DNA of 64,000 nucleotides from Accumulibacter sp. (lineage in GTDB: Bacteria > Pseudomonadota > Gammaproteobacteria > Burkholderiales > Rhodocyclaceae). Positions 2,700 through 36,128 of this stretch are shown here, piece after piece. A model generated the notes under the pieces. It worked only from the letters and a program-made list of their open reading frames with translations. It was not told where the DNA came from and did not search any database. The DNA is taken from NCBI GenBank assembly GCA_024235715.1, contig JACKLW010000005.1:372001-436000 (forward strand), read 5' to 3'. The stretch's first letter is position 1; each line of letters begins with the position of its first letter. The translations under genes were made by a program, and so were the position numbers.

Positions 2700-4703
2700 T
2701 TGGACACGACACTCTGCCCCTTCGATCGCGATCCCACCGGCAAACCGATTGTCGGATCTGATCCCAGGAGTCTGTTTGCGTTCGGACACCTGGTACGTGA
2801 AACCGAGAAGCTCATACTTGACCTGTTTGGCCGCGGCCTGGTCTCCGGTACCACCCATACCTGTCTGGGCCAGGAGATCTGCCAGATGGCCGTTGTCCGC
2901 GCACTGGACGACCCGCGTGATCATGTGCTCTCGAACCACCGCAACCACGGACATTTCCTGACCTACTCGGGAGACTTTACCGGCCTGGTCGCCGAGATCA
3001 TGGGACGCGAGTCCGGCGTGTGCGGCGGCTGGGGCGGCAGTCAGCATATCGCCTACCGCAATTTCCACAGCAATGGCGTCCAGGCGGGGATGACCGCGAT
3101 CGGAGTCGGCATCGCCCGCGCCCTCAAGGCGGAAGGGAGTCGCGGCATCGTCGCCACCATCATCGGCGATGGCACATTGGGCGAAGGACTGCTGTACGAA
3201 AGCATGAACCTGGCTTCGATCTGGCAAGCACCGGTGCTCTTCGTGGTCGAGAACAACGGCATAGCACAGACCACCTATACGCGGCATACGATCGGCGGCG
3301 GGATAGAGGATCGCGGCCGGGCTTTCGGGCTCGCTGTCTGGCGCCTGAATGACCAGCATCCCGAATTTGCAGGGCAATCCGCAGATATCGTCGGGCAGAT
3401 GCGCGCCCATGGCGGGCCGGGCATGCTGGTCATCGACACCGGTCGCCTCGGACCACACAGCAAGGGCGACGACCTTCGGCCAGAGGCTGAGCGGGACGCC
3501 CTGGTCGCCCGCGATCCTCTGCGTAAACTTGCCGAGAGGATCACAGCAGCGGATATCGCGGCGATCGAAACCGCGAACAAAGCCTTCCTTCGCGAAGTGG
3601 AGTCGCGTGCGATGGCGTCGCCCCTGTCGACCTTCCAGGCTGTACCACAGCACTCGTTCAGGGCCGCAATCGATGTCAGCGCTGACGTAGCGGCGATGAA
3701 CCCCACCAAGGAAGTCGTCGCCAACGCCCGCCAGGCGCTCAACGCTGCACTGCACGGCTTGTTTGAGCGCGACGACGCGGTGGTATTGCTGGGAGAGGAT
3801 CTGCATGATCCCTATGGCGGCGCATTCAAGGTGACGGCCGGTCTGTCAGAGGCCTTTCCCGGGCGCGTCATCTCGACTCCCATCAGTGAAGCGGGCATCA
3901 CCGGCGCAGGCATTGGACTGGCGATGGCTGACAGGAAGCCGATCGTTGAGATTATGTTCGCCGACTTTCTCACCCTGTGCATGGACCAGATCTACAACCA
4001 CGCGGTCAAGTTTCCCGGCATCTTCCCGAAGTCGAATGTCCCCCTGGTAATTCGTGCGCCGTGTGGCGGAAGGCGCGGATATGGCCCGACCCACAGCCAG
4101 AGCCCGGAAAACATCTTCGTCGCCGTACCCGGCCTGACAGTCGTGTACGGCAGCCATCGACACCCACTCGGCCAGTTGCTCGCCAACGCCGTGGAACGTT
4201 GGCCAAATCCGACACTTTTTCTCGAGCACAAGCTCCTTTATGGCGAGAAGCTTGACCCGGGTGGCTACGAATCACTTGTCGCCGGTGCGGAAGATATGGG
4301 CGCGGACCTGTTCCCGACGGTGCGCAGCGGTTCTCGGCAACCGGACGTCACACTGATCTCGTTCGGCGGCATGCTGCCTGTGGTCGAAGGTGCGGCGCGC
4401 AAGCTGGAGGAAGAGGAAGAACTGCTGGTGGAAATCGTCGCGCCGTCACTCCTCGCCCCGTTGCCGAGGCAGTCTCTCCTCGCACTCCTGGACAGCCGCC
4501 CGCTGATTCTGGTGGTCGAGGAATCGCACCATCAGTTCGGCGTCAGCGCCGAGATCCTGGCCATGTTGGCCGAGAACGGATTCTCCGGAAAGGTCGCGCG
4601 ACTGGGCACGCCACCAGCGCCGATAGCCTCGGCGCGGAGCCTTGAAAGCGCTCAAATCCCGGACGAGGACGCGATCATTTCGGCCGTGTTGCGCATGTTA
4701 TAG
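2700..4703 (+). CDS. fused E1 alpha/beta subunit of a 2-oxoacid dehydrogenase-type complex
   Basis: This is a 667-aa thiamine-diphosphate enzyme in which the E1 alpha and E1 beta chains are joined. The alpha half carries the ThDP motif (GDG at about 155-157, closing NN at about 184). The beta half begins near residue 340, with GEDLHDPYGGAF and the HSQSPE loop (His about 465). Such enzymes decarboxylate a 2-oxoacid and pass the acyl group to a lipoyl domain. An in-frame TAA at 2676 and the lack of ATG leave TTG 2700 as the start, with only a weak Shine-Dalgarno. A lipoyl E2 and an ACP follow within 150 bases, so this is likely the first gene of an operon. No E3 (lipoamide dehydrogenase) is present. 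The substrate (pyruvate, branched-chain or other) cannot be told. Confidence 0.88.
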   Translation: MDTTLCPFDRDPTGKPIVGSDPRSLFAFGHLVRETEKLILDLFGRGLVSGTTHTCLGQEICQMAVVRALDDPRDHVLSNHRNHGHFLTYSGDFTGLVAEIMGRESGVCGGWGGSQHIAYRNFHSNGVQAGMTAIGVGIARALKAEGSRGIVATIIGDGTLGEGLLYESMNLASIWQAPVLFVVENNGIAQTTYTRHTIGGGIEDRGRAFGLAVWRLNDQHPEFAGQSADIVGQMRAHGGPGMLVIDTGRLGPHSKGDDLRPEAERDALVARDPLRKLAERITAADIAAIETANKAFLREVESRAMASPLSTFQAVPQHSFRAAIDVSADVAAMNPTKEVVANARQALNAALHGLFERDDAVVLLGEDLHDPYGGAFKVTAGLSEAFPGRVISTPISEAGITGAGIGLAMADRKPIVEIMFADFLTLCMDQIYNHAVKFPGIFPKSNVPLVIRAPCGGRRGYGPTHSQSPENIFVAVPGLTVVYGSHRHPLGQLLANAVERWPNPTLFLEHKLLYGEKLDPGGYESLVAGAEDMGADLFPTVRSGSRQPDVTLISFGGMLPVVEGAARKLEEEEELLVEIVAPSLLAPLPRQSLLALLDSRPLILVVEESHHQFGVSAEILAMLAENGFSGKVARLGTPPAPIASARSLESAQIPDEDAIISAVLRML

Positions 4704-4724
4704 TCAGTTTTTGGAACAATTGTT

Positions 4725-5837
4725 ATGGCCACCCCGATACACGCCCCACGCATCAACAACAACGATGATGAAGTCAAGGTTCTGGCATTTGAAGTCGAAA
4801 AAGGAAGCCATGTCCGTAGCGGTCAGATCGTCGGACAGATAGAAACGGACAAGGCGGTCCTGGATATCGAGTCCCCTGTTGATGGCTACGTTCTGTCTCT
4901 GGTCGCACAACCCGACGATCTCGTCAAAGTAGGTAGCGTCATCGCCTGGCTCGGAGAGCAAGCTGACGAGCCGGTCCCCGATGACTCCGAAATGGCACCC
5001 GTCGCCACATCGCGGGACCTTGGTTCGATTACGGCCAAGGCACGGCTGTTGCTCAAAAAACACGGCCTGAGCGCGGACGCCGTAGCCACCATCAACGGGC
5101 GCATTACCGTCGAGGCAGTCGAGAGGCATCTCGCTGCAGACACCAGTCGCCTCGCGGCGAGCAATCGGGATGCACCAGGCGCAGACACGCGTGAAACGCC
5201 GCCCGAGATCCCGGGAGTGATGCTCAGCCCGAGCCGGGAAGAGCGAGGAATGGCGGCAACCGTCGCCTGGCACCGGGACCACCCGGCCACAGGATACATC
5301 GAGATCGAGTACGATCTGGCGCCCTGGGCGAAATATGCCAAGAAGATGCAGGACGACAAGGGCTGGATGATGTCGCCGTTGCTTTCGCTGATGACCTGGC
5401 GACTGGTGGAAGTTGCGACGACAAGCCCGCGGCTCAACTCGACGATGATCAACGACCAGCGTTACCAGTATGCGCCGGTCAATCTGGGCTTCACCATCCA
5501 GGCCGGAGAGACGCTTTTTCTCGCCGTTCTGAGAGACGCGGCCAGCCTCGATGAGGAAGCGTTCGTGTCCGCCCTGGGCGATCTGCAGCGACGCGCAGCC
5601 GGACACAAACTCCGCGAAACGGAAACGTCTGGCGCGACCGTCAGCTTCTCGAGCATGGAGCGCTGGAAAGTAAGCCGGCACATCCCGATCCTTCCCCCGC
5701 AAACCTCCTTCATAGTCGCCCATGCCGCCGGACGTGACGGTAAGGGGGTTCTCGGTGCGACCTACGACCATCGCGTCCTCAACGGCGCGCAGGTCGTCGC
5801 CGCACTCAAGCTCTTGTCCCGACCAGCATCCGACTAA
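4725..5837 (+). CDS. 2-oxoacid dehydrogenase E2-like lipoyl acyltransferase
   Basis: The 370-aa protein has three parts. An N-terminal lipoyl domain has its acceptor lysine in IETDKAVLDIES (Lys43). A peripheral-subunit-binding domain spans about 102-136. A C-terminal acyltransferase domain follows. The catalytic signature usually reads H-x-x-x-D-G, but here it is HRVLNG: His349 is kept and Asp is Asn353. The domain is otherwise well formed. It lies 21 bases after the E1 gene and 15 bases before an acyl carrier protein gene. That arrangement suggests the acyl group is delivered to the ACP phosphopantetheine rather than to CoA. This is inference; a degenerate E2 that only carries the acyl group is the alternative. 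Confidence 0.85.
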   Translation: MATPIHAPRINNNDDEVKVLAFEVEKGSHVRSGQIVGQIETDKAVLDIESPVDGYVLSLVAQPDDLVKVGSVIAWLGEQADEPVPDDSEMAPVATSRDLGSITAKARLLLKKHGLSADAVATINGRITVEAVERHLAADTSRLAASNRDAPGADTRETPPEIPGVMLSPSREERGMAATVAWHRDHPATGYIEIEYDLAPWAKYAKKMQDDKGWMMSPLLSLMTWRLVEVATTSPRLNSTMINDQRYQYAPVNLGFTIQAGETLFLAVLRDAASLDEEAFVSALGDLQRRAAGHKLRETETSGATVSFSSMERWKVSRHIPILPPQTSFIVAHAAGRDGKGVLGATYDHRVLNGAQVVAALKLLSRPASD

Positions 5838-5852
5838 TTGAGAAAGACCGTC

Positions 5853-6122
5853 ATGACCCTTTCACGAGAAAGCATCGAAGCAGCAATCAAGGCAAAGATT
5901 GTGGAGATTGCCGCGCAGACCGGCGACGATGCCAGCGAGCTCGAGCCCGACGAGATCATTCCGGCAACGGGTCTGATCGACTCGACCGGACTGCTCGATT
6001 TGCTCGCCTGGTACGAAAAGACCTACGAAATCTCCCTGGCGCAAGACGAACTCACGATCGACAACCTGGGCAGCCTGACGCGGATGGCAGAGTTCCTCCT
6101 GCGTCGCAAAGGGCTGCTGTGA
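5853..6122 (+). CDS. acyl carrier protein (first copy)
   Basis: An 89-aa acidic, helical carrier protein. The phosphopantetheine attachment site is Ser44 in GLIDSTGLLDLL, close to the family D-S-[LMT] motif. The ORF is also open from TTG 5838, but ATG 5853 has an AG-rich ribosome site (GAGAAAG) about 5 bases ahead and is preferred. It sits between the E2 acyltransferase and hydrolase 2. This fits a dedicated, non-fatty-acid carrier for the acyl group made by the E1/E2 pair. Confidence 0.85.
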   Translation: MTLSRESIEAAIKAKIVEIAAQTGDDASELEPDEIIPATGLIDSTGLLDLLAWYEKTYEISLAQDELTIDNLGSLTRMAEFLLRRKGLL

Positions 6123-6156
6123 TCCTGGCACCCTCGGAATACCTTCTTCCACGCCG

Positions 6157-6999
6157 ATGAGCGCGATACCCACACCATTCTTTCTGGACAGCCCCTCGGG
6201 ACGCCGCTTTGCCGTACATCACGCACCCGACGGGAACGACAAGCCCTGGGGTAACGTCCTGTGTGTTCCGGCGTTCAACGAGGAGATGAACCGCTGCCGA
6301 AGCATGCTGACCCTGCAGGCTCAGGCCTTCGCCAAACAAGGTGTGGGCACGCTGATCATCGACCTGCACGGAACGGGCGAAAGTGATGGTGACCACGGAG
6401 AAGCACGCTGGGCGTCGTGGCTGAAGGATATTGCCATCGGGATGGCGTGGCTCGCCGACAGACCAGGGGCTTGCACCGCTCTCCTGGGCGTCCGCCTGGG
6501 CGTTCCCTTGGCAGTGCAGGCACTCTCCATGAGCGCCCCTGGCGCCAGCCCGGCGCTGATCGCATGGCAGCCCGTGACCGACGGCAAGTCGTACTTCACG
6601 CAGTTCCTGCGCATACGCATGGCCGCCAACATGGACCGGACGGATATCCCGAAGGATACGACAAGCGGCATGCGCAAAGATCTGGCCGCAGGCAGGTCCA
6701 TTGAAGTCGCTGGCTACGAGATTCATCCAGACCTCGCAGCGGCGATCGAAGAAGTCAAGCTGTCGCAAACGCCGCCCGTGGCCGCGCCCATCGCCTGGTT
6801 CGAGCGAACCGCTGGCGCAACCGGCGAAGCGCCACCGGCAAGCCTGTCCGCCATTGAAGCGTGGCGCTCCCACGGCGCACAGATCGATCTGCAGACTTTC
6901 CAGGGCCCCGCATTCTGGGCATTGCATGATCGCGCGACCGCACCGGCGCTGATTGCGCAAACGACCGAATGGGTCAAGACACTTCGGAAGACCATATGA
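6157..6999 (+). CDS. XrtA-associated alpha/beta hydrolase, type 2
   Basis: A 280-aa member of the exosortase A system-associated hydrolase 2 family (TIGR03101-like). It is recognised by PFFLDSPSGRRF at the start, the FNEEMNRCR segment and LIIDLHGTGESDGD. The place of the nucleophile elbow reads LLGVRLGVPLA, so an Arg stands where a Ser, Cys or Asp would be expected. From this sequence alone it is doubtful that it is an ordinary serine hydrolase. Its last four bases (ATGA) contain the start of hydrolase 1. In other genomes both hydrolases travel with ACPs in XrtA loci. The reaction is unknown. Confidence 0.85.
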   Translation: MSAIPTPFFLDSPSGRRFAVHHAPDGNDKPWGNVLCVPAFNEEMNRCRSMLTLQAQAFAKQGVGTLIIDLHGTGESDGDHGEARWASWLKDIAIGMAWLADRPGACTALLGVRLGVPLAVQALSMSAPGASPALIAWQPVTDGKSYFTQFLRIRMAANMDRTDIPKDTTSGMRKDLAAGRSIEVAGYEIHPDLAAAIEEVKLSQTPPVAAPIAWFERTAGATGEAPPASLSAIEAWRSHGAQIDLQTFQGPAFWALHDRATAPALIAQTTEWVKTLRKTI

Positions 7000-7940
7000 A
7001 TGCAATTCCCCTGCGTTTCGCGTGCGCTGGCGCCCCACTCATCGGCATGCTTCACCCTGCCGATGGCAGACCCGAACTCGGCGTACTGATCATGGTCGCC
7101 GGAGGGCCCCAATACAGGATTGGCGGGCATCGCCAGCTGACCCTCTGGTCGCGAAAACTGTCGGCAGAAGGCTATCCGGTGTTCCGCTTCGACTTTCGTG
7201 GCATGGGCGACAGCTACGGTGAATACCGGGACTTCGACGCCGCCGAAGACGATATCCGCGCCGCTCTGGACCGCTTCTTTGCCGAGGTCCCGACCCTGAA
7301 AAACGTGGTCCTCTGGGGTGAATGCAATGCCTGTTCGGCCGCCGCTTTCTTTGCCCACAAAGAGCCTCGCATCAAGGGCATCGTCATGCTCAACCCCTGG
7401 GTCCGTACCGAAGACGGTCATGCCGAGACCGTCATCAAGCATTACTATCTCAAACGGCTGACCGAACGCTCGTTCTGGAAGAAAGTATTTCGCTTCGAGT
7501 TCGACGCCCTCGAATCGGCGCGTTCCGCGGCAAAGCTGTTCAGGCTGGCGCGGCGGTCATCCACTGACGGCAGGTCCGGTCCCGAAAGCACGGCTGCGGG
7601 CGACGACCGCAGTCAGCCATTGCCCGATCGCATGCTGCGCGGCCTCGCCAACTTCAAGGGACAGTTGATGCTTGTCATGAGCGGCAGGGACATCATCGCC
7701 AGGGAATTCGACCAACTGCTCAAGCGTTCACCGGCCTGGCAAACAGAGCTGGCGGCGCACAATACCGTTCGCCATGAGCTGGAATACGCCGATCACACCT
7801 TCTCGAGCCGCGAGTGGCGCGACCAGGTGGCAAGCTGGGGAGTCGACTGGCTCAGAACCGTCAGCGCGTCGTGCATTGTCGCCGCAGCGAGTTCCGCGCG
7901 CCCAGGATTGCACCCGGCCCGCGCTTCGGCCGAGGGTTGA
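6996..7940 (+). CDS. XrtA-associated alpha/beta hydrolase, type 1
   Basis: A 314-aa protein of the exosortase A system-associated hydrolase 1 family (TIGR03100-like). Signs are VAGGPQYRIGGHRQ near residues 34-46, FDFRGMGDSYGE, and NPWVRTEDGHA. The nucleophile elbow is WGECNACSAA, making Cys110 the likely nucleophile. Thioesterase or acyltransferase activity on the ACP-bound acyl group is plausible. ATG 6996 overlaps the previous stop by four bases and is preferred to the in-frame ATG at 6969. The final 30-40 residues (Ala/Ser/Arg-rich) extend past the usual family end. Confidence 0.87.
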   Translation: MNAIPLRFACAGAPLIGMLHPADGRPELGVLIMVAGGPQYRIGGHRQLTLWSRKLSAEGYPVFRFDFRGMGDSYGEYRDFDAAEDDIRAALDRFFAEVPTLKNVVLWGECNACSAAAFFAHKEPRIKGIVMLNPWVRTEDGHAETVIKHYYLKRLTERSFWKKVFRFEFDALESARSAAKLFRLARRSSTDGRSGPESTAAGDDRSQPLPDRMLRGLANFKGQLMLVMSGRDIIAREFDQLLKRSPAWQTELAAHNTVRHELEYADHTFSSREWRDQVASWGVDWLRTVSASCIVAAASSARPGLHPARASAEG

Positions 7941-7947
7941 GGGTCCC

Positions 7948-8796
7948 ATGGCAAAGCCCATCATCGAAGCAATCACAGGGGAAACCCTGCCCGAGTTTGC
8001 CTCCTTTCTGGCTGCCAACATGCGTCACCCGCGCAGCGCCGAAGACTGGGCGTCCGGGCTGCAGACCGGCTGGGCAGGGGTCCGCCCGAACTACGGTTTC
8101 GTTCTGCGCGCCGAAGGCCGGGTGGTCGGCGGAATAGGCGCCATCTACGCCCAGCGCCGCATCCGCGGGCAGACCGAGAACTTCGCCAATATCACGAGCT
8201 GGTGCGTGCTTGACAGCCACCGCAAATGGAGCATGCCACTGGCAATGGCTGTGATCGCCCAGCCGGGATACCACTTCACCGATTTCTCGCCAACCAAGGT
8301 CGTAGCTGAAGTCCTCAGGTTTCTCAACTTCAAGCCGCTCGATGAAGGCGTCGTCGTCATCCCGAACGTCGTCGCGTCTCCGTTGCGCGGAAGAGTCGCA
8401 TCGACACCGGCGCAAATCTCCAGGAGCCTGTCCGGCCCAGCGCTGCAAGTATGGCAAGACCACGCGAGCTTCCCGTGGTTAGGACATGTCCTCATCGGGG
8501 AACCCGGAAACTGGTGCCACGTCATCTACAAACGCGGTCGGCTAAAGGGCGTCCCCAGCGCCAGGATCCTCTACCGCAGCGATGCTGCCATATTGGATTA
8601 CTACTTGCCACGACTGTTCTGGCACTTCCTTGGCTGCGGCTTTCTCACGACCCAGGTCGAACGCCGATTCCTCAACCGTATCCCCCAAGTCTCGCGCGTA
8701 CTGACAGGGTTCAACCCGAAACAGTACCTCAGCCCAACGCTTCAAGCCAGTGACATCGACTACCTGTACTCCGAGTCAGTGGCTCTGGATCTCTGA
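7948..8796 (+). CDS. GNAT-like acyltransferase of the acyl module
   Basis: A 282-aa protein. The N-terminal half resembles the GNAT acetyltransferase fold: an FVLRAEGRVVGGIGAIYAQR strand pair, then a helix and a beta segment around residues 60-100. The C-terminal half is not assigned. ATG 7948 starts 7 bases after the hydrolase 1 stop. The in-frame open extension to 7774 overlaps hydrolase 1 and is not used. Its position between the hydrolase and the second ACP suggests transfer of the carrier-bound acyl group to a sugar or amine. Family level is uncertain and function is inferred from context. Confidence 0.6.
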   Translation: MAKPIIEAITGETLPEFASFLAANMRHPRSAEDWASGLQTGWAGVRPNYGFVLRAEGRVVGGIGAIYAQRRIRGQTENFANITSWCVLDSHRKWSMPLAMAVIAQPGYHFTDFSPTKVVAEVLRFLNFKPLDEGVVVIPNVVASPLRGRVASTPAQISRSLSGPALQVWQDHASFPWLGHVLIGEPGNWCHVIYKRGRLKGVPSARILYRSDAAILDYYLPRLFWHFLGCGFLTTQVERRFLNRIPQVSRVLTGFNPKQYLSPTLQASDIDYLYSESVALDL

Positions 8797-8876
8797 CAAA
8801 CGGCGCCTTGCCCTTTCTGCCATTTCCGCCACATGGAACATTCGTCCCTGGCCCCTGAAAAATCCTGGAGGAATTA

Positions 8877-9134
8877 ATGCCGTTGATTGACACCGTTAAA
8901 CAGATTCTAGATGAGGTACTCTATCTTCATGGCGCGGCGCTGCAATTCACCGAAGAAACGAAACTCGCCGGCAGCATCCCGCAACTGGACTCCATGGCCA
9001 TCGTCTCCCTGATCGCGGCTCTGGAGGAACAACTTGGCGTTTCGTTCCCGGAAGACGAACTGGATGTATCCTTGTTCGAGACGCTCGGGACACTGCTCGC
9101 ATATATCGAGAAACTTTCGAAAAACCCTGCTTAG
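8877..9134 (+). CDS. acyl carrier protein (second copy)
   Basis: An 85-aa carrier protein with the phosphopantetheine serine at Ser39 (QLDSMAIVSLI). A strong ribosome site (GGAGG) lies 6 bases before ATG 8877. Unlike the first ACP (5853-6122), its sequence resembles the XrtA-associated ACP family. The two copies are clearly divergent and may serve separate steps or acyl groups. It ends the acyl module; 247 bases without a clear gene follow. Confidence 0.87.
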   Translation: MPLIDTVKQILDEVLYLHGAALQFTEETKLAGSIPQLDSMAIVSLIAALEEQLGVSFPEDELDVSLFETLGTLLAYIEKLSKNPA

Positions 9135-15485: not shown

Positions 15486-16457
15486 TCAGTCTGCAAGCTG
15501 TCCCGCACGCAGACCCGGGTTCTGCAAGATGTTCCTGAAGAGACGAACTCCGAAGCGCAGTCGTGTTCGCTCCCAGGGAGTGAAACGAGGCAACTGCATC
15601 AGATCGCTGTCCGCATCCGCAACCCCACTAGCCGTGGTAACGGCGGCATCGAAGCCCAGGCTGCGAATGGCCTCGGCGTCTTCGCGACGGTAATCGAGCG
15701 TCGGCTGTCCATTGGGATAAGCGAAAAGCCCGACACGCTCCTGTAGCAACGACTCGAGAAATTCCTTGCTGCCAACAATCTCGGCGCGCACCTCGTCCGG
15801 ACCAAGCCGTCCAATAATCGGGTGGGTGACCGTGTGCGCGCCGATCGACATGCCCGCACGACGCATCATCTTCACCTGTTCGGATGTCAGCATCAGGTCG
15901 GATGGCAGCACGCCGCCAGCCACGGAGGCAACGTAGTCGACTGTCTTCAGGCGTTCGCGCGGATCTTGATACTTTACCTGATTCAGGATGCTCATGATGG
16001 CTTCCCGAATCGCTTCCGGCGACCCCAATTCATACCGACCCAGGCCCTCCGCAGAAAGATCGAGGCTTGCAGTCCTGCAACGCCGCACAGCCTCGACGAC
16101 GGTGTCGTTCCACATCCGCCCACCATCGAGATAACCGGTGGCGATGAAGAAGGTCGCAGTCAGCCCATGCGACTGGAGAATCGGCATCGCCACCGTGCAA
16201 TTATCGGCATAGCCATCGTCAAAGGTGATGGCTGCTGCGCACGCGGGCAGCGAACGATCCCGCAATCGCACGATGGCCTCGTCAAGGGGCAGGACGTTGA
16301 ACCACGCCTTCAGCCAGGCGATCGCCCGCTCGAATTCAAGCGCATCGCGGTCCCAGTTCATGATCGCATCGCGGCGCGCGAGAACACGATGAAAGATCAG
16401 GATCGACAGTCGACCTTTCCGTCCGCCGGGCGAAAGCATCCGTGCAACCGCCTTCAT
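15486..16457 (-). CDS. polysaccharide deacetylase (NodB domain)
   Basis: A 323-aa protein with the NodB homology motifs: TFDDGYADN (metal and base Asp residues, near 78-86) and SIGAHTVTHP (metal His pair, near 200-210). It acts as a carbohydrate esterase 4 enzyme removing acetyl groups from N-acetyl sugars. The ATG at 16457 is preferred; GTG 16460 just before it overlaps the stop of the O-ligase gene. It is the last gene of the minus-strand EPS run. A second, XrtA-type deacetylase lies at 34075-34938. No signal peptide is clear. Confidence 0.87.
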   Translation of the reverse strand: MKAVARMLSPGGRKGRLSILIFHRVLARRDAIMNWDRDALEFERAIAWLKAWFNVLPLDEAIVRLRDRSLPACAAAITFDDGYADNCTVAMPILQSHGLTATFFIATGYLDGGRMWNDTVVEAVRRCRTASLDLSAEGLGRYELGSPEAIREAIMSILNQVKYQDPRERLKTVDYVASVAGGVLPSDLMLTSEQVKMMRRAGMSIGAHTVTHPIIGRLGPDEVRAEIVGSKEFLESLLQERVGLFAYPNGQPTLDYRREDAEAIRSLGFDAAVTTASGVADADSDLMQLPRFTPWERTRLRFGVRLFRNILQNPGLRAGQLAD

Positions 16458-16459
16458 CA

Positions 16460-17782
16460 CTATTCTGCTCCTGGCAGCGCCGTGCTTGTCCGCCCGGGCA
16501 AACCGCTTGGATTGCCCGATCCGAAAGCACCGACATGCTCGTGTTTCCAGGCGCCGTCCCTCAGCCAGCGCTGTGTGACGACAAGAATGGCCATGATGTG
16601 GAAGGCCAGGTCAAAATAGGCAAGACTCAGGAATGCGCCGCCGACGAGGAAGCCAACCAGTGACACCTGACACATCCCCGCAAGGAAATACACCCACGCC
16701 GCAGCGGGCTGTGCCTTGCTTTCCTTGCGAAGTTTGGCGGCGAGATGGAAAGTGAGGTACCACAACAAGAGATACAGGAACAAACCGCCATAACCATGTT
16801 CGGCCAGCACGGAAAAATAGATACTGTGAGCGGCCTGTGGGAGGGTTGCTTCCGGTGGCGCATACGTCGCGTAGTTAATCGACGTATAGGCGTCAAACCC
16901 GGCGCCAAGCGGCAGGTGGTTGGCCATGTTGATACAGAATCGCCAAGCGATAAGCCGTGACATCGCTGACCCGTCCTGCTCGTAGGTCTGGATCGTCCCC
17001 ATGCGCTCCTCCCATGAAGAAGGCATGAAGGCAATCAGCGCGCTTGCGACCACGGCAATGGCGATGCCGACCACGGCTTTGCGACTGGAACGATACCAGA
17101 AAACCAAGCCCATCGCGGATATCGCCAACAGCGCGCCTCGTGACTGCGATCCCAGGGCCGACACGGCGCACAGCAGCATCAGCACCAGCAGGCCGGAACG
17201 CATCCACGCACGGGTCGAAACCACGCGCAGGTAGTTGATCAATGGAATGACCATCACCAGAGCTACTGCCAGTTCATTGTTACCCTCGATGAATCCGCCG
17301 GGAGGTCCCCAGACCCTGCCTCCGCCGCCGTGCAATATGGTCCATATGCCGCCCTTGAAGCCGTAGAAGGCGACCGAGAAGGCATTGACCCAGATGAACA
17401 ACTCGATATGCTTTCGCTCGTGCAGTGCCATCAGCGCAATGGCCACCATCAGCTGGATCTTCAGCACCTTGTTCAGCTGTGGCCAGGACCCCTCAGGGTC
17501 AATCGCGAAAGCCGTCGTCAAACACATCCAGGCGACAAACAATGCCAGAGTGACAACCGGTGGGGCCCAGGGCATGCGCAATTTGTCGCGTGTGATTACC
17601 AGGGAAATCAGCGACGCGCCTGCCGCCATGGCCGCCAGCGGCGCATTGTAGGCAAAACCAAAAGCCAGCTTGTGGGGATTCATGATACTCAGCCAGGTCC
17701 ACAGCAGAACGCCGACCCAGGTGTGGCGCAAGGCAAAAGGCAGAATGGAAAGGACGATGGTGACGATCAGGAGATCACGCAT
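16460..17782 (-). CDS. XrtA-associated O-ligase / O-antigen polymerase-like protein
   Basis: A 440-aa protein with about 10-12 membrane segments. It matches the putative O-glycosylation ligase family of exosortase A systems (TIGR03097-like): MNPHKLAFGFAY near the start, GPPGGFIEGNNELA, ALGSQSRGALLA, and the large periplasmic loop ending in PQAAHSIYFSVLAEHG. It would polymerise repeat units or transfer glycan to a lipid or protein acceptor. ATG 17782 overlaps the end of the PaaK-like gene by 8 bases. The longer frame to 17902 adds only coding overlap. Confidence 0.87.
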   Translation of the reverse strand: MRDLLIVTIVLSILPFALRHTWVGVLLWTWLSIMNPHKLAFGFAYNAPLAAMAAGASLISLVITRDKLRMPWAPPVVTLALFVAWMCLTTAFAIDPEGSWPQLNKVLKIQLMVAIALMALHERKHIELFIWVNAFSVAFYGFKGGIWTILHGGGGRVWGPPGGFIEGNNELAVALVMVIPLINYLRVVSTRAWMRSGLLVLMLLCAVSALGSQSRGALLAISAMGLVFWYRSSRKAVVGIAIAVVASALIAFMPSSWEERMGTIQTYEQDGSAMSRLIAWRFCINMANHLPLGAGFDAYTSINYATYAPPEATLPQAAHSIYFSVLAEHGYGGLFLYLLLWYLTFHLAAKLRKESKAQPAAAWVYFLAGMCQVSLVGFLVGGAFLSLAYFDLAFHIMAILVVTQRWLRDGAWKHEHVGAFGSGNPSGLPGRTSTALPGAE

Positions 17783-19154: not shown

Positions 19155-19476
19155 GAGCATCTCCTCGCGGCAAACCGACGGCGAGACAGCATGGCCACTG
19201 CATTGCGTGCGCAGCAGCGAACATGCACATTCCTGCGCTTGGCGGGGCCAGCGCCCGCTCGAACTCGCGCGGCCCCCGGCGACGCCAGGAGCAAGTTCAG
19301 CGCCCTCTCACCCGACGGCACCGGCCCGATTGGGACCCGCGGCGCCACAATGGTCGATATCCTCCTGCTCATGTGCAAGCCTCGATTGGCATGCCGCGAC
19401 AGCCAAGCCTGAAGGCAAGGCAAGCGGCACGACTCGCCGCTCGGGTCATCGGGATGGTCGGGTGCATGCTGGGTGC
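19155..19476. other. gap between methyltransferase and PaaK-like genes
   Basis: About 320 bases in a run where most genes touch. On the minus strand a 109-codon frame spans it exactly (19480-19151), beginning at a GTG inside the methyltransferase stop and overlapping the next start. Its peptide is Arg/Ala/Pro-rich and resembles nothing known. I cannot decide whether it is a small gene or open by chance in GC-rich DNA. No promoter or terminator is evident. Confidence 0.3.
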
Positions 19477-30209: not shown

Positions 30210-31358
30210 TCACGAAGTCAGCAACCGGTCGTAGAGCCCCTGGTAACCCTGGCTCATCGCTTGCAGGCTGAACTGCTGCTCGACCCTTGCCCGCCCGGCC
30301 AGCCCCGCCAGACGGGCTCGCTGCGGGTCCGTCGCCAGAGCCACGATCTGCCGCGCCATCGCTTCAGGGTCGGCCACCGTCACCAATTCGCCGGTAACGC
30401 CGGCCTCGATCAACTCGCCGTTGCCGCCGACATTCGTCGCAATGACCGGCAGGCCGCTGGCCATCGCTTCCAGGATGGTGTTCGATACCCCTTCCGCCAG
30501 CGACGGAAGAACGAAACAGTCCAGCCCACGCAGTATCTCCGGCACGTCGTCGCGCTCTCCGGGCAACCACGCCAGCGCAGCGAGCCCTGCCTCTTCGAGC
30601 ATCGCCTGCGCCCGTGCCCGCAGCGGCCCTTCGCCGATCATCACCAGTCGCAGTCGGGCCCCTAGGTCGGGAAACACGGCCAGCGCACGGATGAAAGCGG
30701 CGGCCAGGGTCGTCTGGTCCTTGACAATCTGCATCCGGCCGACCGTTCCCACCAGCCAGCACGCCGCATCCGAAAATGGGCAGCCCTCGATCGCTTGACG
30801 CTGTTTGGCCGGATGAAAGCGCTGCACATCCACCCCGTTATAGATCTGTGCTACGCGGCTCGGAGACATGCCGACCCGGCAGGTCAGATAATCGCCGAGA
30901 TCACGTGACAACGCGATGTAATGCGTCACGAACGGACGATAAAGACGACGTAGCCACTGCCCCTTCTTGCTCGAGCCGTCAAAGTCGCCGACATCCCGGC
31001 CATGTTCACCGTGGATGCGCACCGGCACACCGGCCGCCCATGCAGGCACGACGACTTCCAGGGCCGCCAGGTTGCGGCTGTGCACGATAGCCGGTCGCAG
31101 ACGCCGGAACAGCCGCCACAGCCGCGGGTAGATCCACAGCGTGTGACCGGCCTTCTTCTCCAGCGCAATGAACGTGACATCATCACGCACTATGCGCCTC
31201 TTGAAATCGGTGATCTGGGTGAGCGAAATCACGACGTGACGATATCTGTCGCGCGGCAGGTGATTGATCAGGTTGACGACGCCGTTTTCGAGGCCGCCGA
31301 CGGCGAAGCAGAACAACACGTGTGCGATCAGCGGGCGCGATTCAAGCGTGTGTCTCAC
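30210..31358 (-). CDS. XrtA-associated sugar transferase (stp2 type)
   Basis: A 382-aa glycosyltransferase of the TIGR03088-like family. The characteristic N-terminus PLIAHVLFCFAVGGLENGVV is followed by VVPAWAAGVPVRIHGEHGRD and a donor region FVLPSLAEGVSNTILEAMAS. The proper start is GTG 31358, which overlaps the exosortase stop (GTGA); the longer open frame to 31574 lies inside the exosortase gene. It probably acts early in repeat-unit assembly. Confidence 0.9.
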   Translation of the reverse strand: MRHTLESRPLIAHVLFCFAVGGLENGVVNLINHLPRDRYRHVVISLTQITDFKRRIVRDDVTFIALEKKAGHTLWIYPRLWRLFRRLRPAIVHSRNLAALEVVVPAWAAGVPVRIHGEHGRDVGDFDGSSKKGQWLRRLYRPFVTHYIALSRDLGDYLTCRVGMSPSRVAQIYNGVDVQRFHPAKQRQAIEGCPFSDAACWLVGTVGRMQIVKDQTTLAAAFIRALAVFPDLGARLRLVMIGEGPLRARAQAMLEEAGLAALAWLPGERDDVPEILRGLDCFVLPSLAEGVSNTILEAMASGLPVIATNVGGNGELIEAGVTGELVTVADPEAMARQIVALATDPQRARLAGLAGRARVEQQFSLQAMSQGYQGLYDRLLTS

Positions 31359-32908
31359 CCACCACCCTTCGTCTGCTGCAGCGCATTGTCGATCACCGGT
31401 CCCGCAGCACGAGCGAAGTCCGCGAGCACTGTGTCGCCCTCGCCAGCATTTTCCTCGGGCGTATAGAGAACGATGACGGCCGAATCGTCGACCTGTCTGG
31501 TCAGCATCGACAGCGCCGTATAGGCCTTGGCCAGGGCGTCGCTGGCGGTCCAGCGCCCATCGATCCAGTACCATGTCCAGACCGCCAGGCGCATTGCCGC
31601 AGGCCCATTCAACAACGCCGTGCGGATTTTCAGTTGCTGCTGGCCGAAGGAGATGTCACGCGTTCCGCTGGCGACTCTTGCCCACATCGGATCGTCGCTC
31701 CTCACCAGGGCGTTTGTCGAGCTGATCAGCTTTTGCTCCTGATTCTGGTTGCGGTAGTACGCCAGAAAAATGCCCACCGTGCGTCCGTCCTTCTCGAAGC
31801 TGGCCTGCGTACTCGCCGCGTAGTTCCGGAAGTTCGGCTGCCACTGCTCGCCGACCGGGGCGCTGGGAGTCCAGCCGGAAATCTGCCCGAGGCGCGCAAG
31901 CTGCGTCGCTGCCGGTGCCAGACCCTGCTCGATCTTTGCCAGCGCGAGCGTGCAGCCACCACCCACCAGCACGGTCAATACTGCGGCGGCCAGCGAAGGC
32001 GCAGTCGCCGTAAGCGTTGTCGCGGCCATCCGTGGCGCCTGCGCTACGACCGGCTCGACCTCGTCCTCACGCCAGCGCGCACCAATCCAGAACATCGCCA
32101 GGATGACGATGCCGAAAAAGACCCAGCCATAGATCAGATGGTCTACACCAACGGCGAGCTTGTTGCCCGACAGGTGACCAATCATCACGATCATGTAGGC
32201 CCGTACCCAGTTGGCAAGAATCGGGACCAGGAAGGAAACCAGGATGAAAGCCAGCCGCCGCTTCAGTGAGCGATAGGTCAGATAGGCAAAGAGCGTTCCC
32301 ACGGTGACCGAAGCGATGAGGTAGCGAACACCGCTGCAGGCCTCGACCACCGACCAGCTGCCCGTCGGAATAACGAAGCGCAGACCTTCGCTATGCACCG
32401 GAATCCCTGTAAAACGCAGACCGATGACCGTAAAACGCGCCGTCCAGTCCATCAGCGTGGGTAGCGCGAAGTCGCCGAAGGGGACGGCGAAGAACAGAAA
32501 CAACAGTGGGAAGGTAATACGTCGGGCGAAGTGCCAGCCAAGTACGGCCGGCACCGAAGCGACCACCATCGCTACCAAAGCAAACTGCGAGACCACGTTG
32601 ACCGTCGCCAGTTGACCGAGAAGCCAGGCGAATCCAGCGACCGCAACCAGCACGACAGCCGCATAGCTGTGTCGAGGCGCCAAGGCGGCGAGACTCGCGC
32701 GCATCCGCCAGATCAACCACAGGCTGATCGGCGGCACGATGAATCCGTGTGCATAGGTATCGGAGCGCTCCCAGATGCTCAGCATACCGAGTGCCGTGTC
32801 ACGGAAAAGCACCAGAATCACTGCCAGGGTCAGAACAACCGTTGGGAGAGCGACTCGCCAGCCCGGGTGGACGGCAAGGGATGTTGGACGCGGCTCTGCT
32901 TCGTTCAT
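31355..32908 (-). CDS. xrtA: exosortase A (EpsH) with C-terminal EpsI domain
   Basis: A 517-aa membrane protein. The first roughly 290 residues hold eight hydrophobic segments and the exosortase catalytic triad: Cys about 191 in VVEACSGVRYL, Arg about 236 in NWVRAYM, His about 257 in DHLIYGW. The last 200 residues are an EpsI-type periplasmic domain, fused as in the XrtA subgroup. It cleaves PEP-CTERM sorting signals and is thought to attach the proteins to the surface polymer. It sits between the FemAB-like gene (81 bases upstream) and stp2 (overlapping). No PEP-CTERM substrate is encoded in this window. Confidence 0.95.
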   Translation of the reverse strand: MNEAEPRPTSLAVHPGWRVALPTVVLTLAVILVLFRDTALGMLSIWERSDTYAHGFIVPPISLWLIWRMRASLAALAPRHSYAAVVLVAVAGFAWLLGQLATVNVVSQFALVAMVVASVPAVLGWHFARRITFPLLFLFFAVPFGDFALPTLMDWTARFTVIGLRFTGIPVHSEGLRFVIPTGSWSVVEACSGVRYLIASVTVGTLFAYLTYRSLKRRLAFILVSFLVPILANWVRAYMIVMIGHLSGNKLAVGVDHLIYGWVFFGIVILAMFWIGARWREDEVEPVVAQAPRMAATTLTATAPSLAAAVLTVLVGGGCTLALAKIEQGLAPAATQLARLGQISGWTPSAPVGEQWQPNFRNYAASTQASFEKDGRTVGIFLAYYRNQNQEQKLISSTNALVRSDDPMWARVASGTRDISFGQQQLKIRTALLNGPAAMRLAVWTWYWIDGRWTASDALAKAYTALSMLTRQVDDSAVIVLYTPEENAGEGDTVLADFARAAGPVIDNALQQTKGGG

Positions 32909-32989: not shown

Positions 32990-34075
32990 CTAACCGAGGT
33001 TGCGAACGATAAATGGCCCGAGCCAGTTGGCGAGACCGATCGGCATCCGCCGCCAGGTCTCTATCAGCAAGCGATACTTGGCGTTGGCCGGGTTGTTTTG
33101 TGGGATCGAGTCACGACGGTAAAGGCAGTGTTCGTAGAACAGGGGCTGTGGCTCGAAGCCCCAGTTCTTCTTGAAGGAATACGAGCCGGTACCCTGTTTG
33201 CTGCGGCCGTAGTCGAAGCTCTTGATGCCACGCTCGCATGCGCGCCGCATCAACTCCCAGTACTTGAAGTCGTTTGCCGCCAGGTGGCGCGCCGACACCT
33301 CGTCACCGGCGTAATAAGGCAGGACCTCGTCCCGGAAATAGAAACTCAACACGGCGCTCAGGGGCCGGCCGCCACTGTCCACCACCGTCAACGCTTCGCA
33401 GTCGCCACCAAAAACCCGTTGCAAGGCCTCGAAATAGCGTCTCGGCAGCGCTGGCGTCCCGTGTCGATGGACGTTGTCGGCATAGAGTGCGAAGAAACGT
33501 CCCGCGTCGACGTCGATCTCGCTGCGCAAACCGTTCTTTATTCCCTTGCGCACCATCGCACGCTGCTTGCGCGGAATTGCCTTCATGTTGTCGTCGATTT
33601 CTGGCGCCAGGTCCTTGCGGAAGCGAACGTAGAGATCCTGCAGCGGCCATTCCGGATGACGTTGGCGCAGATTGCGCAGTTCCAGGTGATCGACGCCGAG
33701 CCGCCTGGCGATCGCCTGCGCTTCGCCTTCCAGCGCCTCGACCGCCGCCGCGCCGCTTGCCGCCACCCCGCCATAGACGGCAAATGGCAGCGAGACAAGC
33801 GTATTGCCAAACAGCACGCTCTTGACGTGCGCGAGCGGAAGGACACCCTCGATGACGCCCGAACGCTCCGCGTAAAGGTAATGCGTCCGATGCGCAAAGA
33901 CCTCGCCAATGACCTGCTGCCAGCCGGCGCGGTGAAAGAAAGTCGCCTCGGGGCACGCCTCCACGAAAGCATCCCATCGGCGCACTGCTGGCCGGTCGGC
34001 AGAATCCAGGTGCTTGACGCGGAGCGGCGCGCTCGCGGCGACTTGCCTGGCCACTTCCTCGATTGTCGTGTTCAT
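32990..34075 (-). CDS. FemAB-like XrtA/PEP-CTERM-associated protein
   Basis: A 361-aa member of the GNAT-fold FemAB family found with exosortase A (TIGR03019-like). ATFFHRAGWQQVIGEVF near residue 50, the KQRAMVRKGIKNGL segment and the C-terminal FDYGRSKQGTGSYSFKKNWGFEP are characteristic. The related FemABX enzymes add amino acids to peptidoglycan from aminoacyl-tRNA. Here the acceptor is probably the polymer or its lipid carrier, but this is unproven. ATG 34075 overlaps the deacetylase stop by one base (TGATG); the TTG just before it is not needed. Confidence 0.9.
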   Translation of the reverse strand: MNTTIEEVARQVAASAPLRVKHLDSADRPAVRRWDAFVEACPEATFFHRAGWQQVIGEVFAHRTHYLYAERSGVIEGVLPLAHVKSVLFGNTLVSLPFAVYGGVAASGAAAVEALEGEAQAIARRLGVDHLELRNLRQRHPEWPLQDLYVRFRKDLAPEIDDNMKAIPRKQRAMVRKGIKNGLRSEIDVDAGRFFALYADNVHRHGTPALPRRYFEALQRVFGGDCEALTVVDSGGRPLSAVLSFYFRDEVLPYYAGDEVSARHLAANDFKYWELMRRACERGIKSFDYGRSKQGTGSYSFKKNWGFEPQPLFYEHCLYRRDSIPQNNPANAKYRLLIETWRRMPIGLANWLGPFIVRNLG

Positions 34076-34938
34076 CAATTCACCGCCCGCGGATGAGCGT
34101 CCGCACCGAGAAATACCTCATCCATCCGCCCCCAGCTGAAGTCGCCGAGCAAGCGCCGGACGCGAGCTTCGGTGCGCTGCAGATTGACATAATGGCGGAA
34201 GCGCGTCTTGGCGCTGATACCCGCCACGCGTGGCTGCCCGGCGTCGATCTCCCAGGGATGGAAATAAAAGACCGCTGGCTGATGATCAAGCTCGTTCACC
34301 TTTTGCAGCAGCCAGCGCGACAGCGCGTACGGCAGCAGGCGGAAATAGCCGCCACCGCTCGCCGGCCAGTTGCGGTCGAGATAGCGGACGGTGGTCACCG
34401 GCACTTCGAGAAGGCCGGCGCGCACCTGGTGTGCGAAGCGTGGCGCACCGGGCATGCCGTAGTGATCATGGCGAATGGGGTAGATGCTTGAACTGTAGCG
34501 GTAGCCCGCACGTTCGAGACAGTCGAACGCCCACAGATTTCCTTCGCCGATCGAAAAGCTCGGCGCCCGGTAGCCGTTGACTTCCTGACCGGAGATATCT
34601 TCCAGCAGTTTCTTGGCGGACCCGATATCTGCCGAAAACTCGGCTTCGCTGAGCTCGCTGGCGCGCTGGTGACCGTAGCCATGACTGGCCAGTTCGTGCC
34701 CACCGGCGACGATACGACGGACAAGCTGCGGGTAGCGTTCGGCAACCCAGCCAAGCGTGAAGAAGGTCGCCCGGGTGCGTCCTTCGTCGAGCATCTGGAG
34801 GATACGTTCGACGTTCCGTTCGACACGGCACTCGCGCGAATCCCACATTTCCCGGGGGATGTACGGTGCAAACGCGGAAACCTGAAAGTAGTCCTCGACG
34901 TCGATGGTCAGGGCATTGGTTATCGGCCGGCCTGGCAT
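34075..34938 (-). CDS. XrtA-associated polysaccharide deacetylase
   Basis: A 287-aa NodB-domain protein of the TIGR03006-like family. It has LTIDVEDYFQVSAFAPYIPR at the start (metal Asp), ELASHGYGHQRASEL (metal His pair), RAPSFSIGEGNLWA, and FYFHPWEIDAGQPR near the end. It is predicted to deacetylate N-acetyl sugars of the polymer. ATG 34938 is chosen as it follows the wecB stop by about 20 bases. The upstream in-frame ATG at 34995 lies inside wecB. No signal peptide is seen. Confidence 0.92.
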   Translation of the reverse strand: MPGRPITNALTIDVEDYFQVSAFAPYIPREMWDSRECRVERNVERILQMLDEGRTRATFFTLGWVAERYPQLVRRIVAGGHELASHGYGHQRASELSEAEFSADIGSAKKLLEDISGQEVNGYRAPSFSIGEGNLWAFDCLERAGYRYSSSIYPIRHDHYGMPGAPRFAHQVRAGLLEVPVTTVRYLDRNWPASGGGYFRLLPYALSRWLLQKVNELDHQPAVFYFHPWEIDAGQPRVAGISAKTRFRHYVNLQRTEARVRRLLGDFSWGRMDEVFLGADAHPRAVN

Positions 34939-34958
34939 CTCTTGGGGATCATCCTTGT

Positions 34959-36128
34959 CTATGCTGCACGCCGTGCGCGGCGGGCGAGCAGCCATGCCGA
35001 GAGATCAGCGGCAATTCTCGGTGCTGCCTGGCCATCCCAGAACTCGGGAATGCGACCGCTCTTGCCGACGCCTGAAAGAACTTCGCCGACACCTCTCCGG
35101 ATCGCCTGCGGATCACAGCCAACCAGGGTATTCGTTCCTTGCTCGATGGTGATCGGACGTTCGGTATTTTCACGAATCGTCAGGCAGGGAACACCGAGCG
35201 CGGTGCTTTCCTCCTGCAGCCCCCCGGAATCGGACAGTACGAGCTTCGCGCCGGCCAGCAGTCCGAGCATTTCCAGGTAGCCCTGCGGCGGCAACACGGC
35301 GATGCGCGGGGTACGCAGCAGTTCGCCCAGGCCAAGGCGTTCAACGTTGGCACGCGTGCGCGGATGCATGGCGAAAACCAGCGGCACCTGCTCGGAAACT
35401 TCGCGGAGTACCGACAGCAAAGGCTGCAGCGTCTCGACCTGATCGACGTTGGAAGGACGGTGCAGCGTCACCACCCCGTAGCCGCGCGGGTCGTCGAGAA
35501 GCGCCGGGTCGATGCCGGCCAATTGCAGGGTCTTCGCTGGCGAGTGCGCCAGTTCGCGATTCGAGAGCAGGGAGTCGATCATGACATTGCCGACAAAGCA
35601 TACCCGCTCCTCGGCAACACCCTCACGCATCAGGTTGGCCAGCGCGCTGCGCTCGGTGGTGTACAGTCGATCCGCGATCTGGTCGGTGAGGACCCGGTTG
35701 ATCTCCTCGGGCATCGCCCGGTCGTGGCTGCGCAGGCCCGCTTCGACATGCACCACCGGCACGTCCTTCTTGACCGAAACGAGTGCACAGGCCAGCGTCG
35801 AGTTCACGTCGCCGACGACCAGCACGCACGACGGCCGCCGGCCGTCGAGCACGGGCTCGAAGCGCTTCATGACTTCCGCAGTCTGCACCGCGTGCGTCGC
35901 CGAACCGACTTCGAGGTTGATGTCCGGATGCGGCAGGCGCAGATCGACGAACAGCCGGTCATTCATGTCATTATCGTAGTGCTGGCCGGTGTGTACCAAC
36001 AGGGTCGGCATGGCCGGCCGATGGGCGCTGAAAGCGCGCAGAATTGGCGCCATCTTCATGAAATTCGGTCGCGCACCGACGACACAGGCGATCGGACCCA
36101 GATCCGCAGGCCACTGTTGATCAGTCAA
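34959..36128 (-). CDS. wecB: UDP-N-acetylglucosamine 2-epimerase (non-hydrolysing)
   Basis: A 389-aa protein with the classic GT-B epimerase signature: CVVGARPNFMKMAPILRAF, TGQHYDNDM, VVGDVNSTLACALVS, HVEAGLRS, then SDSGGLQEES and a TERPITIEQGTN-like end of the active site. It converts UDP-GlcNAc to UDP-ManNAc, supplying an amino sugar for the EPS. Start appears to be TTG 36128, supported by an AGGAG ribosome site 7 bases ahead. It follows the ATPase gene by 12 bases. Confidence 0.94.
   Translation of the reverse strand: MTDQQWPADLGPIACVVGARPNFMKMAPILRAFSAHRPAMPTLLVHTGQHYDNDMNDRLFVDLRLPHPDINLEVGSATHAVQTAEVMKRFEPVLDGRRPSCVLVVGDVNSTLACALVSVKKDVPVVHVEAGLRSHDRAMPEEINRVLTDQIADRLYTTERSALANLMREGVAEERVCFVGNVMIDSLLSNRELAHSPAKTLQLAGIDPALLDDPRGYGVVTLHRPSNVDQVETLQPLLSVLREVSEQVPLVFAMHPRTRANVERLGLGELLRTPRIAVLPPQGYLEMLGLLAGAKLVLSDSGGLQEESTALGVPCLTIRENTERPITIEQGTNTLVGCDPQAIRRGVGEVLSGVGKSGRIPEFWDGQAAPRIAADLSAWLLARRARRAA

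Follow-up and report, generated by a model that had tools for sequence, protein, structure and literature searches.

The window analysed here is a stretch of 64,000 nucleotides from Accumulibacter sp. (contig JACKLW010000005.1, positions 372,001 to 436,000), which carries seven tightly packed genes on its + strand at 2700–9134. They encode, in order, a fused E1 of the 2-oxoacid dehydrogenase type, a lipoyl E2, an acyl carrier protein (ACP1), hydrolase 2, hydrolase 1, a predicted tandem-GNAT-fold protein (GNATx) and a second carrier protein (ACP2). An initial annotation made from the sequence alone had named genes of these kinds, and all seven were confirmed, GNATx by its predicted fold. E1, E2, ACP1 and GNATx make up a conserved module that is new in its setting and its partner, and kin of the glycolyl-ACP cassettes of antibiotic pathways. 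The preferred reading, with a probability of about 0.5, is that of an acyl-charging and acyl-transfer module for exopolysaccharide modification.

Conservation and Distribution of the Module

A single scan of genome contigs with E2 gave a set of 17 related loci (E2 identity 41–70%) from Rhodocyclus, Azonexus/Dechloromonas relatives, Nitrosomonas, Comamonadaceae, Paucibacter, a Chromatiaceae metagenome-assembled genome, Hoeflea and others. E1 lies directly upstream of E2 in all 17 loci, and the ACP1 match begins 3–79 bases past the E2 match in 15; in L011 and L015, ACP1 was found about 9.4 kb upstream of E2. The E2–ACP1 adjacency was also present in three loci of one genus (L110–L112). Since E1 precedes E2 in 17/17 loci and ACP1 follows E2 in 15/17 at this level of E2 identity, the arrangement is not due to chance. 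The concern raised in the initial annotation, that E1–E2 might lie beside ACPs in a single genome only, is contradicted by these 17 further genomes, 15 of them with the ACP directly behind E2. Within the fetched stretches, GNATx was present in 15/17 loci (on the opposite strand in L012) and hydrolases 2 and 1 in 14/17, with L009 stopping at a contig edge.

The module is rare but wide. Class-wide sampling recovered it in 1 of 274 genomes with E2 at E up to 1e-20, and in 1 of 340 with E1 above 800 bits (hereafter a strong E1), in each case the source genome. An order-level sample of 399 genomes contained four strong E1s.

E1 Phylogeny and the Acyl Source

In two trees of 39 and 59 E1 proteins, in which look-alike cassettes were included and QncN, QncL, NapB and the pepteridine E1 were not among the rows, the module E1s, the natural-product cassette E1s and RenH formed one clade with 100/100 support. 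RenH is encoded on the renieramycin plasmid. The clade, with members from Streptomyces, Streptantibioticus, Nonomuraea and Paenibacillus loci, is separate from 16 and 40 other E1s, respectively, mostly from CoA-type gene sets or unexamined loci, and in both trees the module E1 stands outside the group that holds the conventional coenzyme A (CoA)-linked 2-oxoacid dehydrogenase gene sets. Among the plasmid-record matches listed, RenH was the best (404 bits), followed by alpha/beta pairs of Paenibacillus and actinomycetes (348–378 bits); the best other match among the best 30 was from Shinella (321 bits). In Streptomyces sp. NBC_01136, the order ACP, E1 alpha, E1 beta, E2 was found behind nonribosomal peptide synthetase (NRPS) and MbtH genes, the same gene set as described for SclQ1–4 and QncL/M/N. 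By sequence kinship, E1 is assigned to the natural-product, carrier-loading type.

This placement bears on the possibility that an ordinary CoA-linked E1/E2 pair sits beside ACP genes by chance. E2 does keep the fold, Ser and His of CoA-linked E2s; the position of E1 outside the group with CoA-type gene sets, together with the E2–ACP1 adjacency in 15/17 related loci and L110–L112, makes this explanation highly improbable.

PMC6335953 describes glycolyl attachment by QncL/M/N as demonstrated and proposes, by homology, that SclQ1–4 make glycolyl from a ketose phosphate. Since E1 clades with cassettes whose quinocarcin type reportedly turns ketose phosphate into glycolyl-ACP, a sugar-derived glycolyl group appears likelier than the decarboxylated 2-oxoacid named in the initial annotation, and glycolyl from a ketose phosphate is, by this analogy, fairly likely. 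That all the look-alike cassettes make glycolyl is itself inferred by analogy. A variant of the same charging in which decarboxylation of pyruvate or a branched-chain 2-oxoacid supplies the acyl group, as proposed for pepteridine, is on the unlikely side. It would agree with the full 2-oxoacid dehydrogenase domain set of E1. In PMC5384830, a carrier protein is proposed to be loaded with acyl groups derived from 2-oxoacids, and a metagenomic enzyme that converts branched-chain 2-oxoacids to branched-chain acyl-ACP is cited. The grouping of E1 with natural-product cassettes, of which the quinocarcin type reportedly uses ketose phosphates, argues against it.

E2 and Probable Delivery to the Carrier Protein

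The predicted model of E2 had a predicted local distance difference test score (pLDDT) of 82.4, and its Foldseek matches were E2 cores. The catalytic His was retained in 18/18 module E2s, and the position of the HxxxDG Asp was occupied by Asp in one, Asn in 12, Ser in three, Gly in one and His in one. This Asp was found in none of five E2s from natural-product loci (Asn in three, Thr in two) and in all three conventional E2s shown; in an Azotobacter E2, Asn is the natural residue. The module E2s have in common with natural-product E2s a signature of the N-terminal lipoyl domain (P-[RKQ]-x-x-x-N-[DE]-like), seen in four of five of the latter, the fifth being truncated at its start; it was absent from the three conventional E2s shown.

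Charging of ACP1 by E1–E2 is likely, judged from these sequences. The direct delivery to a carrier protein that was guessed in the initial annotation gains support from ACP1 behind E2 in 15/17 loci and from the clade shared by E1 with natural-product cassettes. Its premise, that known E1/E2 enzymes pass acyl groups to CoA, falls, since carrier-protein loading has been shown or proposed in print for quinocarcin, naphthyridinomycin, scleric acid and pepteridine; by these analogies, E2-to-ACP delivery would not be new in kind. In PMC5384830, the pepteridine E2 is proposed to prime a carrier domain instead of CoA, with E3 supplied from elsewhere in the genome, and three earlier papers are cited for analogous carrier priming.

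GNATx as the Steadiest Partner

The steadiest partner of E1–E2 is GNATx, and not the hydrolases. It was present in 15/17 E1–E2 genomes and, using a profile at E up to 1e-10, in 6 of the 399 order-sample genomes, including 4/4 with a strong E1, three of which belong to one genus. In L110–L112, a divergently oriented GNATx gene adjoins E1–E2–ACP1, and hydrolases are absent. The AlphaFold2 model of GNATx, built with 12 sequences (pLDDT 85.9), gave Foldseek matches to 2ozg (E 3.3e-11), Eis and N-myristoyltransferases (NMT), which places it, as predicted from the model, in the GNAT superfamily with a tandem-GNAT fold. In the first scans, the window GNATx gave no family match, with Pfam GNAT only at E 0.028; at a limit of E 10, PF00583 was detected in 11 of 12 members, with a best E of 0.00047. 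The CoA-binding loop motif of GNAT enzymes is Q/RxxGxG/A. At this position, RxxS was read by eye in 16 GNATx rows and was found in the relatives at loci L127 and L128, and RxxG in those at L140 and L141.

The theme common to GNATx relatives is carrier- or adenylate-type activation, a glycan locus, or both. In S. meliloti pSymB and an Aureimonas plasmid, relatives with 35–36% identity stand beside an XrtA-type ligase, decarboxylase and ACP together with glycosyltransferases, and the pSymB locus also has a polysaccharide deacetylase. In Sulfitobacter (L142), the gene immediately before the relative encodes a polysaccharide deacetylase, and the 12.8 kb shown contain no carrier gene; in Rhizobium sp. 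T136, an adenylate-forming enzyme and a halogenase are encoded near the relative, and no glycan gene is present in the stretch shown. These four plasmid contexts were hand-picked from 52 matching records and are examples, not a count. Among the genomes, G387 (L128) has a relative after an NRPS, and G305 (L127:8085-12603) has an ACP, an FkbH protein (TIGR01686, E 4e-94), a MaoC/SDR protein and then the GNATx relative. FkbH proteins are described in PMC7489565 as making glyceryl-ACP, and the L127 row is a possible glyceryl version of the module.

Several side observations were made around GNATx. In L110:5685-6752, L111:11067-12116 and L112:6743-7762, a conserved 339–355-aa protein of unknown family stands beside it; an assignment as deacetylase was dropped, as Pfam, NCBIfam and PDB gave no support. 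At L010:17639-19435, about 3.6 kb past the module GNATx, there is an FkbH-like gene (29% identical to the one in L127). In L140:5950-11634 (pSymB), the GNATx relative is a "hypothetical protein", and the ligase match falls in two overlapping pieces where no gene is listed. In Hoeflea (L018:3759-11388), whose genome has no exosortase A, an SDR and a class III aminotransferase lie near E1–E2–ACP1. A GNAT-like protein of 350 aa, distinct from GNATx, is encoded roughly 1 kb away from E1 on the opposite strand (Pfam E 7.9e-5, slightly below the cut-off).

A Lipoyl Domain Fused to a Sugar Acyltransferase

A different arrangement was found in G634 (L113:8495-11510), where E1 alpha, E1 beta and a fusion of a lipoyl domain with a NeuD/PglD-type sugar acyltransferase lie inside a CDP-sugar cluster. 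Its E1 falls in the same clade, with weak support (81/56) for placement beside the module E1s. The fusion (371 aa as scanned) has an N-terminal lipoyl domain (PF00364) and a C-terminal sugar acyltransferase of NeuD/PglB/VioB type, with TIGR03570 at 143.6 bits, under the cut-off of 160.8, and perosamine N-acetyltransferase and VioB as best PDB matches. A second such fusion was found neither in plasmids, where no record covers 80% and the listed matches are to the acyltransferase half, nor in viral contigs, which gave nothing. This single example could feed a sugar directly from the lipoyl arm, with neither CoA nor ACP, and is an independent hint of sugar acylation.

An alternative in which charged ACP1 supplies acyl groups for lipids, N-acyl amino acids or proteins instead of a glycan, with GNATx as a relative of N-acyl amino acid synthases, was weighed against these contexts. 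FeeM has a GNAT-like fold, and Craig is said to have linked, in 2011, N-acyl amino acid synthases to PEP-CTERM/exosortase loci. The GNAT-like fold also serves N-myristoyl transfer, NMT being among the GNATx matches. Against this, three of the four hand-picked plasmid contexts (the exception being Rhizobium sp. T136) have a GNATx relative next to polysaccharide deacetylases or glycosyltransferases, the L113 fusion ends in a sugar acyltransferase, and no model of the FeeM type or of an exosortase acyltransferase was matched by GNATx, either in Pfam (E up to 10, with weak matches mostly filtered) or in NCBIfam (0.01). This alternative is considered unlikely. Transfer to a sugar or protein had been suggested at the outset; the contexts above favour a surface sugar.

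The Hydrolases

The hydrolases had initially been counted as module partners. A core role was ruled out by the hydrolase-less modules of L110–L112, three genomes of the 399 with E1–E2–ACP1–GNATx and without hydrolase 1, and by the distribution of hydrolase 1, which was above the cut-off in 63/399 genomes, 62 of them without a strong E1. One of these 62 (G634) has an E1 at 42–43% identity. Among the four genomes with a strong E1, only the source genome has hydrolase 1.

Hydrolase 1 has a Cys (GxC) at the nucleophile elbow in 32/32 readable rows (31 genes, L027 and L118 being one), and hydrolase 2 has Arg at the expected nucleophile Ser in 33/33 rows read, a few with an alignment shift. A Cys nucleophile is also found in PhaC synthases. 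From these residues, the two alpha/beta-hydrolase-fold proteins are probably not plain hydrolases, and the pattern would agree better with acyl transfer alongside a non-catalytic partner than with simple hydrolysis. Both families share this pattern, which is uninformative on E1–E2. Hydrolases 1 and 2, like ACP2, are probably accessory here and part of a second charging branch of the XrtA ligase type.

The Exosortase A Setting

The window is a full exosortase A (XrtA) exopolysaccharide locus, as initially annotated, with exosortase A and eight further XrtA-associated families above their cut-offs (TIGR03097, 03087, 03088, 04063, 03108, 03019, 03006 and 03015; TIGR03108 in one of its three copies). 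Features are given in Table 1. For ACP1, orthologues favour the start at ATG 5853, giving 89 aa, and its Pfam score (18.7 bits) is slightly below the cut-off of 20.8. Hydrolases 2 and 1 overlap by 4 bases if ATG 6996 is used. Lys43 and His349 of E2 are taken by us to be the lipoyl attachment site and the catalytic residue.

Table 1. Features of the module and selected neighbouring genes in the window.
Feature	Coordinates	Strand	Support
Fused E1 alpha/beta, thiamine diphosphate (ThDP)-dependent, 667 aa	2700..4703	+	Pfam PF00676 (E1_dh), PF02779 (Transket_pyr), PF02780 (Transketolase_C)
E2, 370 aa: lipoyl domain, short linker like a peripheral subunit-binding domain, CAT-type acyltransferase domain	4725..5837	+	PF00364, PF00198
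E2 lipoyl lysine codon (Lys43, ETDK)	4851..4853	+	K43 invariant in 16 aligned E2s
E2 catalytic His349 codon (HxxxNG here)	5769..5771	+	Invariant in 16 aligned E2s
ACP1, directly 3' of E2	5838..6122	+	Pfam PP-binding, E 0.0021
ACP1 phosphopantetheine Ser	5982-5984	+	DS[TA] in 18/18 aligned rows
Hydrolase 2, XrtA-associated	6157..6999	+	TIGR03101, 256.7 bits (cut-off 202.75)
Hydrolase 1, XrtA-associated; listed open reading frame start 6969	6996..7940	+	TIGR03100, 293.2 bits (cut-off 168.45)
Hydrolase 1 Cys at nucleophile elbow	7323-7325	+	
GNATx, predicted tandem-GNAT-fold protein, 282 aa; proposed acyl-ACP-dependent acyltransferase	7948..8796	+	
ACP2	8877..9134	+	Pfam PP-binding (PF00550), E 1.8e-6
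ACP2 phosphopantetheine Ser	8991-8993	+	
Polysaccharide deacetylase (context; could provide a free amino group)	15486..16460	-	PF01522, E 2.5e-23
Exosortase A with EpsI domain (context)	31355..32908	-	TIGR03109, 356.6 bits (cut-off 208)
XrtA-system polysaccharide deacetylase (context)	34075..34995	-	TIGR03006, 462.3 bits (cut-off 276.2)

Of the 21 module genomes examined (18 plus the three of L110–L112), 20 had XrtA above the cut-off, the exception being Hoeflea (L018). Coordinates read by hand placed XrtA no more than 40 kb from E1, on its contig, in 13/21; it is on contigs other than that of E1 in L110–L112, and on different or undeterminable contigs in four more genomes. XrtA loci are thus the usual yet not the sole home of the module.

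The XrtA ligase TIGR03098 charges by adenylation, and the TIGR03098/TIGR03099 charging genes are not a required feature of this locus type. An XrtA-type ligase and decarboxylase were found near E1 in L003, L004, L010 and L011, and the ligase alone at the contig end of L012. The ligase and decarboxylase of L004 gave no match in the window at E up to 1e-4; the pair of the source genome is elsewhere on contig C5, about 208 kb from the module. The idea that E1–E2 is an alternative to the XrtA ligase was ruled out, as TIGR03098 was above the cut-off in 16/18 module genomes and present near the module in 5/5 loci checked.

Two further observations concern the window itself. A PaaK/DVU_1553-like AMP-dependent ligase at 17775-19160 (- strand), under the model cut-offs, could charge ACP2, the XrtA-type ligase not being in the window. 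Three XrtA amidotransferase paralogues lie at 431-2206, 25057-26982 and 28206-30146; in the first, the model match begins about 100 positions in, and the N-terminal glutaminase part seems to be missing.

Proposed Mechanism

The gene content, order, conservation, E1 phylogeny and co-occurrence described above, with the predicted GNAT fold, are the basis for the substrate, acyl group and acceptor proposed here. In the preferred reading, E1 would remove a two-carbon unit from its substrate, most likely a ketose phosphate, and use it to reductively acylate the E2 lipoyl arm, which would then carry a glycolyl-type acyl-dihydrolipoyl group. The acyltransferase domain of E2 would then pass the acyl group to the phosphopantetheine arm of ACP1 instead of CoA. 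The lipoamide would be re-oxidised by an E3 encoded elsewhere. As had been noted initially, the window contains no E3; three lipoamide-dehydrogenase-like genes (E up to 1e-30, one above the cut-off) sit on contigs C6, C15 and C17, the window being on C5, and the presence of E3 elsewhere in the genome was counted in favour of this reading. Finally, GNATx would move the acyl group from ACP1 to the polysaccharide or a precursor. The most likely acceptor would be an amino sugar that a polysaccharide deacetylase has freed, and transfer to such a sugar of the polysaccharide is plausible.

Several points weigh against this reading. The ketose substrate would follow from kinship with look-alike cassettes in trees without QncN, QncL and NapB, no E1 residue proves ketose over 2-oxoacid, and the pepteridine E1, a proposed 2-oxoacid user that primes a carrier protein, was outside the comparison. 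In the first tree, the E1s of a Streptomyces xanthii NRPS cluster (L083) and of a Solidesulfovibrio glycan cluster (L080), both left out of the second tree (59 rows), fell outside the clade on long branches, so an NRPS- or glycan-cluster neighbourhood alone is no marker of the clade. GNATx is missing from 2/17 E1–E2 genomes (L016 and L018), of which L018 also has no XrtA, and it occurs without a strong E1 in G305 and G387; with three of the four strong-E1 genomes in one genus, the co-occurrence count is not independent. The Asp-to-Asn exchange of E2 was dropped as a mark of ACP use, the title of 1dpb naming Asn614 in the Azotobacter E2. As a separate observation, the E1 gene of L083 (L083:3336-5348, on a plasmid) is a fused alpha/beta directly before an NRPS gene, and its branch is very long.

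More tentatively, the module may belong to a general, interchangeable system of bacterial exopolysaccharide acyl decoration, in which E1–E2 (from sugar phosphates), FkbH (from bisphosphoglycerate) and the XrtA ligase with decarboxylase load small hydroxyacyl or aminoacyl groups on ACPs, and one tandem-GNAT family puts these in place of the acetyls removed by deacetylases; the L113 branch would skip the carrier, its lipoyl arm supplying the fused sugar acyltransferase.

Significance and Comparison with Known Systems

The XrtA-associated "hydrolases", ligase, decarboxylase and ACPs are markers of many environmental bacteria. Floc formation in activated sludge is linked to PEP-CTERM proteins and exopolysaccharide (PMC9012009). 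The module offers testable chemistry, from a ketose phosphate through glycolyl-ACP to an N- or O-glycolyl polysaccharide, with a candidate for the final transferase. Loading of carriers by E1/E2 is so far known mainly from antibiotic pathways; if the reading holds, an antibiotic-type acyl-charging device has been carried into polysaccharide biology and could be a tool for hydroxyacylated glycans. The initial annotation knew of no characterised pathway of this kind, and no description was found in the searchable literature, to which subscription papers are mostly external; the variant may be noted elsewhere.

The closest known systems are the glycolyl-ACP cassettes QncN/QncL/QncM, NapB/NapD and SclQ1–4, which, like the module, combine E1 alpha and beta, a lipoyl/acyltransferase E2 and a discrete ACP. 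In contrast to them, the module has E1 as one fused gene, lies in an exopolysaccharide locus instead of an NRPS cluster and is coupled to a tandem-GNAT protein. Conventional 2-oxoacid dehydrogenase complexes have the same E1/E2 domain make-up; the module differs from them in its E1 clade, in having no E3 in the window and in the ACP beside E2. The XrtA set of TIGR03098, TIGR03099, ACP and TIGR03100–03101 is likewise a carrier-charging set of XrtA loci, and GNATx relatives pair with it too. The pepteridine E1 and E2-T-C fusion (plu2792–2799), compared by description from PMC5384830, resembles the module in that E1 and E2 are proposed to prime a carrier with E3 from elsewhere, and differs in the carrier and condensation domains fused to E2, the 2-oxoacid substrate and the small-molecule product. 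The FkbH glyceryl-ACP systems (PMC7489565) also charge a discrete ACP with a small hydroxyacyl group taken from a sugar-phosphate metabolite, but with a HAD-type enzyme and 1,3-bisphosphoglycerate, whereas the module would use ThDP/lipoyl chemistry.

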